Below, piece by piece: positions 3,459 through 6,730 of a DNA stretch of 50,026 nt (the stretch's first letter is position 1; every line of letters begins with the position of its first letter). Under the pieces are notes generated by a model that had not been told where the DNA came from, searched no databases, and was given only the letters and a program-made list of their open reading frames with translations. The stretch is from Prochlorococcus sp. AG-402-I21 (GTDB taxonomy: Bacteria; Cyanobacteriota; Cyanobacteriia; PCC-6307; Cyanobiaceae). The stretch covers positions 1-50,026 of the forward strand of contig QCHZ01000010.1 of the NCBI GenBank assembly GCA_003216955.1. The letters are read 5' to 3'. The translations under genes were made by a program, and so were the position numbers.

Positions 3459-4406
3459 ATGAGAATGTCTTTGGGAAATTTAAATCAAGAGGATTTTAAG
3501 TCAGGATTTATTGCATTAATCGGTAGACCCAATGTTGGTAAATCAACTTTCATAAACAAATTTATTGGTCAGAAAATATCAATTACATCGCCCATCGCTC
3601 AAACTACTCGAAATCGATTAAAAGTAATACTTACTAATAAAAAGTCTCAAATTATTTTTGTTGATACTCCTGGTATTCACAAACCCCATCATTTATTAGG
3701 TGAAAGACTTGTTCAGAGTGCGAAGAGATCTATTGGAGAGGTGGATGCAGTTTTAGTTATTTTTGAAGCCAATCATTCTCCAGGAAGAGGTGATGCATTT
3801 ATTTTAAATTTGATTAGAAATATACAAATACCAGTGATTGTTGCCTTGAACAAATGGGATCTTGTTCATTTGAGTCAATTTAAAGAAAGAAAGAAAGAAT
3901 ATTTAGATTTTTTTGAGGGTACAAATTGGCCAGTTTTTTGTTGTAGTGCTTTTACAGGAAAGGGATGTAATGAATTGATTAATGAAATAGAAGAAAAACT
4001 ACCTTTGGGCCCTCAGTTGTATCCAAGTCATATGACTTGTGACCATCCTGAAAAGTTTTTAATGGCTGAATTTATAAGGGAACAAGTGTTAATAAATACT
4101 CGCGAAGAGGTCCCTCATAGTGTTGCAGTTTCTATTGATAAAATTGAAGATGTACCTTCGAAAAAAAAATCTAAAGAGAATTCAAGAACAGGAATTCTTG
4201 CAACTATTTGTGTTGAGAAAAAAAGCCAGAAAGGAATTTTAATTGGTAAAGGAGGAAGTATGTTGAAGAAAATTGGCCAGGAATCAAGACTACAAATTCA
4301 AACTTTAATTAATGGGAATGTATATTTAGAATTGTTTGTTAAAGTTGTTCCTGACTGGAGAAGTAAATCTTCTCGGCTTAATGAGTTTGGTTATGAAGGG
4401 AGCTAA
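3459..4406 (+). CDS. era: GTPase Era
   Basis: Era binds 16S rRNA and assists 30S subunit maturation. All GTPase motifs are visible: G1 GRPNVGKS, G2 around TTRNRLKV, G3 DTPGI, G4 NKWD and G5 CCSAFTGKG. The C-terminal KH RNA-binding domain follows, with [19 protein letters not shown] and the ending [11 protein letters not shown] typical of Era. Length 315 aa is normal for cyanobacteria. There are two possible ATG starts, at 3459 and 3465; either leaves a short leader before the G domain. The trmD-ispF frame starts five bases after the stop, so the two genes are probably co-transcribed. Confidence 0.96.
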
Positions 4407-4411
4407 TCAGT

Positions 4412-5638
4412 ATGAGTAGGATCAGATTCGATGTAGTAAGCCTTTTCCCAGAAGCATTTAAAAATTTTTTTAATCATGGACTTATAAAAAAGGCATTTGA
4501 AGAGAAGATTGCATCAATTCATATACATAATCCTCGTGACCATGCAATAGATAATTATCGAAAAGTTGATGATGAACCATATGGCGGAGGCGCTGGAATG
4601 GTCTTGAAGCCCGAACCTTATTTTTCGGTATTTGATCAAATCCCAAAGCTCAATAATAAAAGGATACTTTTGATGTCTCCACAAGGTAGAAGAATAGCTC
4701 AATCTGATTTTTCTAGATGGTCAAAATCAGATCAACTTATATTGATATGTGGTAGCTATGAGGGGTTTGATGAGAGGATTCGTTCTCTAGCGGATGAAGA
4801 AATTTCAATTGGAGACTTTGTCCTTACGGGTGGAGAAATTCCTGCGATAACTCTTATTAATGGAGTAGTACGACTATTGCCTGGAACTTTAGGAAGTGCC
4901 GAATCATTAGAAGAAGAAAGCCATAATGAGTTCCTTTTAGAACATCCGCAATACACACGACCCTCAGAATTCAAAGGTATGAAGGTTCCTGATGTCTTAC
5001 AAAGTGGTAACCATAAATTAATTAAAGAATGGAGGCAGAAGCAAAGAGAAATCAGGACTCAGTCACGTAGACCCGATTTGTTCAAACTTTGGAAGCTCGA
5101 CCAATTATCATTCGATAAAAGAACTTCATTATTAAAAACTGAAGTGAGCTTACGAATAGGCAACGGTTATGACATGCACAGATTGGTTCCTGGTCGACCT
5201 TTAATACTTGGTGGGATTAAGTTAAATCATCCTGAAGGTTTAGGTCTTGATGGACATAGTGATGCAGATGTTCTTACTCATGCAATTATGGATGCAATTT
5301 TAGGGGCATTATCTTTGGGTGATATTGGAAAGTACTTCCCTCCAGATGACCCTAAATGGAAGAATGCAGATAGTCTGATTCTTCTTGAACAGGTAATAGA
5401 ATTAATTGAGAAGAAAGGTTGGCAAATTCAAAATATTGATTCAGTTATTGTTGCTGAAAGGCCAAAATTAAAACCTTATATAGACCTGATGAAGGAGAAA
5501 ATATCTAAGAAAATAGGAGTTGATATTGATGATGTAGGGGTTAAAGCAACTACAAATGAGAAATTAGGTGCTGAAGGGAGAGAAGAAGGTATATGTTGTC
5601 ATGCAGTTGTTTTGATGAAAAGAAATGAAAACAAGTAA
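4412..5638 (+). CDS. trmD: TrmD tRNA (guanine-37-N1) methyltransferase in frame with IspF
   Basis: One 408-codon frame encodes two full enzymes. Residues 1 to about 244 are TrmD, which methylates N1 of G37 in tRNA: the N-terminus [24 protein letters not shown], the SAM-binding trefoil-knot motifs [13 protein letters not shown] and [14 protein letters not shown], and the C-terminal RRPDLF segment are present. Residues 245 to 408 are IspF (MECDP synthase of the MEP isoprenoid pathway). No stop codon separates them. Either a real fusion protein is made, or TrmD is translated with an IspF tail while IspF also starts at the internal GTG at 5144. Each half has normal family length, so nothing seems lost. 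Same operon as era. Confidence 0.92.
5144..5638 (+). CDS. ispF: IspF, 2-C-methyl-D-erythritol 2,4-cyclodiphosphate synthase (domain or internal start)
   Basis: The C-terminal 164 codons of the trmD frame are a complete IspF, which cyclises CDP-ME-2P to MECDP in the plastid-type isoprenoid pathway. Motifs are [12 protein letters not shown] (Asp and His are zinc ligands), [32 protein letters not shown] and the C-terminal [19 protein letters not shown] codon at 5144 lies five residues before the conserved GNGYD, just where IspF proteins usually begin, so independent initiation is plausible. The upstream bases show only a weak ribosome binding site. Whether the cell makes separate IspF, the fusion, or both cannot be decided from sequence. 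It overlaps the next gene by 14 bases. Confidence 0.8.
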
Positions 5639-6080
5639 AAAGAAAAATTTTATTCAAAAAATTTTTCTTTTTGTATTTGTTGGTTTAATTTCTCTTTCTA
5701 CTATTTTTGGAAATGTGAAAAATATTCAAGCTGAGTCTTTTTTGAAAGTGAATTTTCCAAAGGAATCTATTGTCGAGCACCTTAAGCTTGATGTCCCGAA
5801 AAAATTTAAACATGCTTGGTTAAAAGCCGAACAAGGAAGTTGGGAACCATGGTTGTTGAAACAGAATGGGTTTTTAGGACGCCAACTTTTTTGGGATCCT
5901 GAACTTGAGGAAGCAACCTTATTGATTGCTTGGGAGTCAAAAGCAGTTTGGAAGAATATTTCTCAGACAGAAATAAATCTTGTCCAGCAGGATTTTGAAA
6001 GGATTGCTCGAAAGGAAACAGGTGAGATTAGTGGAAATCCTTTCCCATTGATTTTTGAAGGAGAATTAAATCCAGAGTAA
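5625..6080 (+). CDS. TIGR03792-family cyanobacterial exported protein
   Basis: A 151-residue protein with a basic N-terminus and one hydrophobic segment (about residues 12-30, [18 protein letters not shown]), likely a signal peptide or anchor. The body carries the pattern of the cyanobacteria-specific TIGR03792 family, which has an ABM-like fold: [48 protein letters not shown]. The family has no known function. Its start overlaps the end of ispF by 14 bases and larB follows after two bases, so it lies within one operon running from era to larB. Confidence 0.82.
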
Positions 6081-6082
6081 AG

Positions 6083-6730
6083 ATGAATCAATCAATTATT
6101 GATTTTCAGAGACCAAGTCGACTAGGTGTGATTGAGGCTATATGGGGGGAGCATAAAACAATAGAGCAAATTTCTGAAATATTGAAAAAATTTCAACTTA
6201 AATACGAAACTGCTTTGGTGACAAGACTTTCCAAAGTAAAAGGAGAAAAACTTTTAGTTGAATTTCCTTCTGCAAAATTTCATGAGATAGCTGGTTGTTT
6301 AACTATGGGGAAGTTTAAGGAATGTACTTCTTCTGAGGAAGAAGTGATTATTTTGACTGGAGGAACAAGTGATGTAGGGGTGGCGTCAGAAGCAGAAATA
6401 GCTTTGAATTTGCACGGAATAAAAACTAAATTATTGATTGATGTTGGTGTCGCAGGCCTTCATAGGCTGCTAGATAGGCTTGAAGAAATAAAATCAGCAA
6501 AAGTAGTTATTGCATGTGCCGGCATGGAGGGAGCTTTGCCTACTGTGCTTGCTGGATTAATTCCTCAGCCAATTATTGGACTTCCTGTTTCAGTTGGATA
6601 TGGCATTAGTGGTGGAGGTAAAACTGCTTTGGAGGGAATGCTTGCAAGTTGTGCTCCAGGATTATTAGTAGTGAATATTGATAATGGTTATGGTGCAGCG
6701 ATGGCTGCTATTAGAATTTTATTGGCCTAA
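6083..6730 (+). CDS. larB: LarB-like carboxylase (PurE-related)
   Basis: 215 aa, matching LarB, which carboxylates and hydrolyses nicotinate adenine dinucleotide in synthesis of the nickel-pincer cofactor. The PurE-like core is clear: ILTGGTSDVGVASEAE, DVGVAGLHRLLDRL, VIACAGMEGALPTVLAGL, and the Gly-rich PVSVGYGISGGGKTAL. The N-terminal part is shorter than in Lactobacillus LarB (about 250 aa). LarC and LarE, which would be needed for the cofactor, are not in this window, so it may serve another reaction; older annotations call this family an AIR carboxylase homologue. Two bases separate it from the preceding gene. Confidence 0.85.
   Translation: MNQSIIDFQRPSRLGVIEAIWGEHKTIEQISEILKKFQLKYETALVTRLSKVKGEKLLVEFPSAKFHEIAGCLTMGKFKECTSSEEEVIILTGGTSDVGVASEAEIALNLHGIKTKLLIDVGVAGLHRLLDRLEEIKSAKVVIACAGMEGALPTVLAGLIPQPIIGLPVSVGYGISGGGKTALEGMLASCAPGLLVVNIDNGYGAAMAAIRILLA

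Follow-up and report, generated by a model that had tools for sequence, protein, structure and literature searches.

A fused trmD-ispF gene of Prochlorococcus with its joint as a probable integration site of small genomic islands

Introduction

The phage-like chromosomal island SpyCI of Streptococcus pyogenes integrates site-specifically at mutL, and one SpyCI is described as giving the downstream gene a promoter (PMC3430984, excerpt). For Prochlorococcus, tycheposons have been reported, which measure 4-200 kb and are bordered by a tRNA gene (PMC10872708, excerpt). Here, a protein-coding locus of Prochlorococcus sp. AG-402-I21 is analyzed, at which trmD and ispF are read in one frame. The whole stretch of DNA under study, 50,026 nt of contig QCHZ01000010.1, is referred to as the window. 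A preliminary description, made from the letters of the window, had noted the fusion; it is compared below with relatives in which the two genes are separate.

Results

The fused gene and its domains

The features of the region are listed in Table 1. The next gene in the same row encodes LarB (nickel pincer cofactor) at positions 6083-6730.

Table 1. Coordinates of the trmD-ispF region in the window and of its direct neighbors.
Feature	Position	Strand	Remarks
era	3459..4406	+	upstream neighbor; gap to the fused ORF 5 nt
trmD-ispF fused ORF	4412..5638	+	408 AA, ATG start, no internal stop; same frame in 21 of 41 genus genomes
TrmD domain, residues 5-228	4424..5095	+	TIGR00088, E 2.7e-87; aligns with solved TrmD structures
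linker, residues 229-244	5096..5143	+	ahead of the nested start; located between the two domain matches
nested ispF ORF from GTG 5144	5144..5638	+	164 AA; probable internal translation start
IspF domain, residues 248-403	5153..5620	+	TIGR00151, E 5.4e-64
GGCAACG, 7-nt core	5159..5165	+	putative attB, empty here; based on the crossing pattern around GGNAAYG
TIGR03792 family gene	5625..6080	+	14-nt overlap with the ispF end, different frame

The preliminary description had read the ORF as two full-length domains fused in frame, and the family models agree: both TIGR00088 (TrmD; 291.9 bits, cut-off 195) and TIGR00151 (IspF; 215.0 bits, cut-off 116.45) are matched over their full length in the open frame. 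The Pfam domain calls are the same, and both halves align with solved structures of the respective enzyme in the PDB, where the best stretch crossed both halves in none of the 57 matched sequences. The model for the bifunctional IspD-IspF (NF006899) was matched by residues 236-405 only (210.6, cut-off 417); the N-terminal IspD domain was not found in the fused ORF, the N-terminal half of which is TrmD. The own genome (1.73 Mb, 37 contigs) holds a single match to trmD-ispF.

The motifs GYDxH and HSDADV, which we take to be the metal-binding motifs of IspF, are present as GYDMH (residues 252-256) and HSDADV (residues 282-287) and are invariant in 10 fused sequences. In TrmD of E. coli and H. influenzae, the catalytic residue is Asp169. 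At this position the window encodes Glu (residue 169, positions 4916-4918, in EEESH), which is likewise invariant in the 10 fused sequences. The solved TrmD 8byh has Glu at the same position and the three other alignments shown have Asp. Since 8byh too carries Glu, the Glu169 form of TrmD may still be active.

Among 19 genus sequences, pN/pS was 0.116 for the TrmD domain and 0.080 for the IspF domain, and linker residues 223-244 were weakly constrained (0.48). Base shuffles of four linkers were stop-free in 6-56% of trials. Because a single open linker is therefore weak evidence, it is the recurrence of the open join that argues for a real fusion. A chance open frame was rejected on this ground, given 21 of 41 genus genomes and 57 loci at the DNA level. 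The predicted structure of the fused protein had a mean pLDDT of 39 (10 sequences), which is too low for use. Judged from these comparisons, trmD-ispF of the window is a genuine fused gene with both domains complete.

In the literature searched, which covered few subscription journals, we found no description of a TrmD-IspF protein, in line with the preliminary description, which knew of none, and none of ispF as an integration site. PMC6579920, retrieved as a paper on ispF and an attachment site, was a false match on ISPfr2.

Distribution of the fused, split and tandem states

The search matched 35 of the 41 genomes of the genus, 21 of them with fused genes, 13 with separate genes and one with a fragment (G027); six had no match. 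Two of the fused cases (G037 and G039) are cut by contig ends, and G038 was counted as separate with trmD and ispF on different contigs. Five of the 21 are single-contig genomes (G002, G003, G005, G006 and G007), and the join also occurs in named Prochlorococcus and Synechococcus records. The stop-free join asked about in the preliminary description is hence present in relatives, and the notion of a fusion unique to this genome was discarded in view of the genus and family matches; the family contains it often. The preliminary description had also named a stop codon or a frameshift in sister strains as an outcome that would speak against the fusion. Separate genes do occur in 13 of the 41 genomes, but the cause is inserted DNA and not an error of frame.

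Within the family, 369 of 400 genomes gave a match. The DNA of 132 loci, which were picked by hand and are not a random draw, was classed as 57 fused, 56 split and 19 tandem; the counts below rest on these loci, and motifs were counted in the same data in which they were found. Tandem denotes trmD and ispF ≤ 170 nt apart without open fusion, and two of the 19 tandem loci are outgroups (Fischerella and Leptolyngbya). The 57 fused loci comprise 16 genus codes and one named Synechococcus record. No open fused frame was found in 80 genomes of other families; the single match spanning both genes there (G442) has an in-frame TAG. By coordinates only, 38 further genomes with two matches contain close tandem pairs as well as pairs kilobases apart; some genomes with distant pairs are as large as those of Synechococcus (e.g., G114 and G120). 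Close neighbors out of frame exist, too (e.g., G045 and G084, by coordinates). The idea that the frame is kept despite a stop in the linker was dropped, since the loci in question came from a search reading one frame.

Fused and split members occur together within the genus codes g1, g11, g18 and g53. Placed on a TrmD-core tree, the distribution of the three states over the 132 loci requires at least 34 changes, and the starred branches force at least 8 changes between fused and the rest. This tree was built by a quick method and leaves 61 of its 129 inner branches open; recombination of trmD itself may also have affected it. A plasmid search gave 93 records, none with 80% query coverage, and the matches listed are single trmD genes of other bacteria. 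One contig end (L043, AG-410-A05 NODE_5) carries ispF parts in both orientations and is probably a chimera of a single-cell assembly.

A probable nested start of ispF

GTG 5144-5146 is codon 245 of the fused ORF and lies three codons upstream of RIGNGYD. It had been proposed as a possible separate start of ispF, and the comparison of loci bears this out: at codon -3, a start codon is present in 55 of 57 fused loci (24 ATG, 27 GTG and 4 TTG) and in none of the 56 split loci. In the fused loci, ATG, GTG or TTG is found in no case at -2, -4, -5 or -6 and in 8 cases at -1; for comparison, 21% of four-codon windows of the TrmD core contain such a codon. In 53 of the 56 split loci, ispF begins with an ATG at codon -8 relative to RIGNG. 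The swapping of Met, Val and Leu at -3 is therefore explained only by their codons being start codons. Within the genus, the sole change at -3 is GTG to TTG. Val is otherwise seldom encoded by GTG in these sequences (46 of 477), and 20 of the 46 are at this site. Motifs resembling a Shine-Dalgarno sequence precede 4 of 57 internal starts of fused loci and 3 of 55 starts of split ispF, a test that is uninformative. According to this codon pattern, ispF probably keeps its own start inside the fused frame, which in the window is GTG 5144. The 408-AA protein should be made as well, because no stop precedes IspF.

The joint as a probable integration site

In the 56 split loci, trmD and ispF are separated by 166 to 7382 nt (median about 1620). 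The TrmD tail and the ispF head of split loci were compared with the fused consensus on either side of GGNAAYG, using 21 fused and 6 split loci of g1 and 5 fused and 6 split loci of g18. The split loci are those with a RIGN-like TrmD tail (6 of 12 in g1, 6 of 16 in g18); a seventh of g1 (L178) was dropped, its tail lying outside the motif, and those omitted mostly have shortened or different tails. In g1, the TrmD tail agrees with the fused consensus at 238 of 252 positions left of the core and at 56 of 192 right of it, and the ispF head at 177 of 192 positions on the right and 89 of 252 on the left. The same crossing is seen in g18, with 236 of 252 (left) and 84 of 192 (right) for the TrmD tail and 177 of 192 (right) and 109 of 252 (left) for the ispF head. 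In the 12 split loci, the island flanks thus add up to the empty site in the way attL and attR add up to attB. The old ispF start codon at -3 is still found in 12 of 12 compared TrmD tails; the compact or fused state is therefore the older one.

TrmD ends in a short signature encoded by the island, e.g., YPDW or DPWFDD, in 36 of 56 split loci; in the other 20 no recognizable signature was found, and none of 76 cargo proteins has one. A DNA pattern for the YPDW tail hit 13 of 400 genomes and none in the reversed control. According to coordinates, the hit is the TrmD tail in 11 of the 13 and lies in the island behind it in 2.

Six loci contain orphan mini-ORFs composed of an ispF head and an island end; that of L161, for instance, reads MTRKSPQLRIGNEYDIYPDW and that of L136 MTKAFPQLRIGNEYYIPDPWLDD, each followed by a stop codon. 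The mini-ORF of L126 has a worn end and that of L130 no ATG. Repeated entry of islands into the ispF head should leave, inside an island, a former ispF head fused to a left end, and, read in this way, the orphan mini-ORFs show serial insertion. As far as the sequences tell, the trmD-ispF joint is probably an integration site with GGNAAYG as its core, of which the window would be the empty, fused form. What the preliminary description missed is that the relatives are apparently split since an island sits exactly at the joint.

Recombinase, end repeats and cargo of the islands

A PF00589 search of 40 genomes found one integrase inside an island (G287:C1:211661-213232). This recombinase, P0001, is an open frame of 524 AA with a TTG start directly after the mini-ORF of L161. 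Taken alone it scores 25.2 bits against PF00589 (E 1.5e-5, cut-off 27.1), and together with its neighbors it exceeds the cut-off; no NCBIfam name and no PDB relative was found for it. Remnants are present in L129 (residues 442-517, 51% identical), L159 (1-52, 56%), L158 (2-26, 72%) and at a second place in L161. The left end of the G287 island has DNA matches beyond its ispF-like part in 19 of 58 other loci (≥ 100 nt long in 7), and its right end has matches in 19 of 58.

Pairs of RTYACAR repeats 11 nt apart number 20 in the island ends (16.4 kb) and 4 in the island middles (86.9 kb); no pair was found in 31 kb of trmD or on the other strand. Of 41 islands, only 7 show the repeats at the left end and only 11 at the right end, and the motif was spotted by eye in the same data. 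Arm sites of this sort are usual for tyrosine recombinases.

The cargo set consists of 76 mechanically called ORFs of ≥ 80 AA. Among the 25 of 106 families shown are PF13649 methyltransferases (in 7), FkbM methyltransferases (4), 2OG-Fe(II) oxygenases (4) and polysaccharide-export proteins (3), and the cargo is read as surface modification from these assignments. That no integrase appears among these 25 of 106 families is uninformative, as the recombinase itself is in that set. A phage origin was considered and rejected: no close relatives of the recombinase or of the fused protein were found in viral_contigs, and of the PHROGs cargo families (25 of 52 shown) the named ones are enzymes and the others nameless. 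No tRNA gene was found in any of the 56 split loci or within the 17 kb of L199 that surround the G287 island.

Four loci of other picocyanobacteria (L193, L194, L196 and L198) have a recombinase with 33-37% identity to P0001 directly after a flavodiiron-type gene; that of L196 is broken by stops. A second flavodiiron-type gene is situated at the far end of each stretch (domains checked for L193 only), and no tRNA was found in the four loci. This suggests a wider recombinase family that would target protein genes, and the flavodiiron-type gene pair is perhaps a second integration site of this kind. A full-length recombinase, 48-49% identical to the island recombinase, is encoded elsewhere in a genome with fused trmD-ispF (L192, G069:C5).

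Discussion

The observations are probably best accounted for by a fused gene with a nested ispF start, into the joint of which a tyrosine recombinase inserts islands that rebuild separate genes; we consider this likely. In such a scheme, the ribosome would make the 408-AA TrmD-IspF and, by internal initiation at GTG 5144, a free IspF of 164 AA. The recombinase would put small islands in by a crossover within GGNAAYG at the 5' end of ispF. At the left end of the island, a short tail, in many cases EYDIYPDW followed by a stop, would terminate the TrmD frame. The right end would place new upstream DNA before ispF together with an ATG and some eight codons, and ispF would thereby be reconstituted as a gene of its own. 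If the island were excised or lost, the fused gene would return. A more far-reaching version is doubtful, namely that island entry and exit act as a reversible fission-fusion switch, toggling between one bifunctional TrmD-IspF that has IspF nested in it and two enzymes driven independently of each other. Ready-made stop and start would keep both proteins alive, and the supply of isoprenoid precursors versus tRNA methylation would be rewired in wild Prochlorococcus.

Several other explanations were weighed against insertion at the joint. The islands could be replacement islands, swapped by homologous recombination in the flanks and independent of a site-specific integrase, with the likeness of TrmD tail and ispF head as leftover homology. 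Most islands indeed lack a recognizable recombinase, the cargo is of the surface-modification kind known from such islands (PMC10872708, excerpt), and the island ends are similar, so that they could recombine with each other and contribute to the pattern. Yet the crossing is sharp at one 7-nt core in two genera, the orphan mini-ORFs originate from serial insertion, a recombinase gene and its remnants are located at the left end, and the repeats are concentrated at the island ends. Replacement is improbable on balance. An assembly or sequencing error in the window, which is one contig of a 37-contig assembly, is negligibly probable considering that 20 other genomes of the genus, including five assembled as one contig, and the named Prochlorococcus and Synechococcus records have the same join.

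Concerning the fusion itself, the stop of trmD may have been lost neutrally, with IspF made solely from the internal start and the fused protein an unimportant by-product. The conserved internal start, the weakly constrained linker (pN/pS 0.48) and the tandem loci of relatives, in which a stop lies in a short linker (19 of 132), fit this reading, which we consider less likely than not: without a stop every TrmD made would carry IspF, the frame is open in 57 loci of 16 genus codes, and the ratio of the linker is still < 1. The opposite proposal is that the fusion couples two steps on purpose, e.g., via tRNA position 37. TrmD methylates this position, and IspF feeds the isoprenoid that MiaA uses on position 37 of other tRNAs. 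This proposal draws on the common target position, whereas the genes are split in close relatives (13 of 41 genus genomes) and the nested start decouples the amounts of IspF, which makes purposeful coupling very unlikely.

If the joint is an integration site, a gene fusion would be polymorphic within one genus since its joint is the docking site of a mobile element, and an element could enter a fused housekeeping pair with neither half broken. Protein fission and fusion would be directly testable in closely related strains, and protein genes would join the tRNA genes described for tycheposons as integration sites of picocyanobacteria. Annotators should be aware that, at this locus, it is easy to set the TrmD end and the IspF start at the wrong place.

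Compared with known systems, other cyanobacteria possess the same families, with trmD and ispF adjoining in some of the other families, e.g., in G424, G429, G455 and Fischerella (L024), but none of the 80 genomes of other families has the open fused frame. IspF forms the C-terminal half here as in the bifunctional IspD-IspF (NF006899; structures 8xhu and 1w55), whereas the partner is TrmD and the fusion is polymorphic within the genus and has a nested IspF start. The islands resemble tycheposons, as far as the excerpt describes them, in that they, too, would be integrative elements of Prochlorococcus that carry cargo and, putatively, a tyrosine recombinase; they differ in that the target is a protein gene, with 0 tRNA genes in 56 of 56 split loci, and in their size of 0.2-7.4 kb. 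The nearest known mechanism in the literature searched appears to be that of SpyCI at mutL, likewise a site-specific entry at the 5' end of a housekeeping gene of the essential type. The target of SpyCI is one gene behind its neighbor, while the target here would be the joint of a fused gene, and the islands are far smaller. Unlike SpyCI as described in the excerpt, they would also give a start codon and new N-terminal codons to the downstream gene and close the upstream frame.
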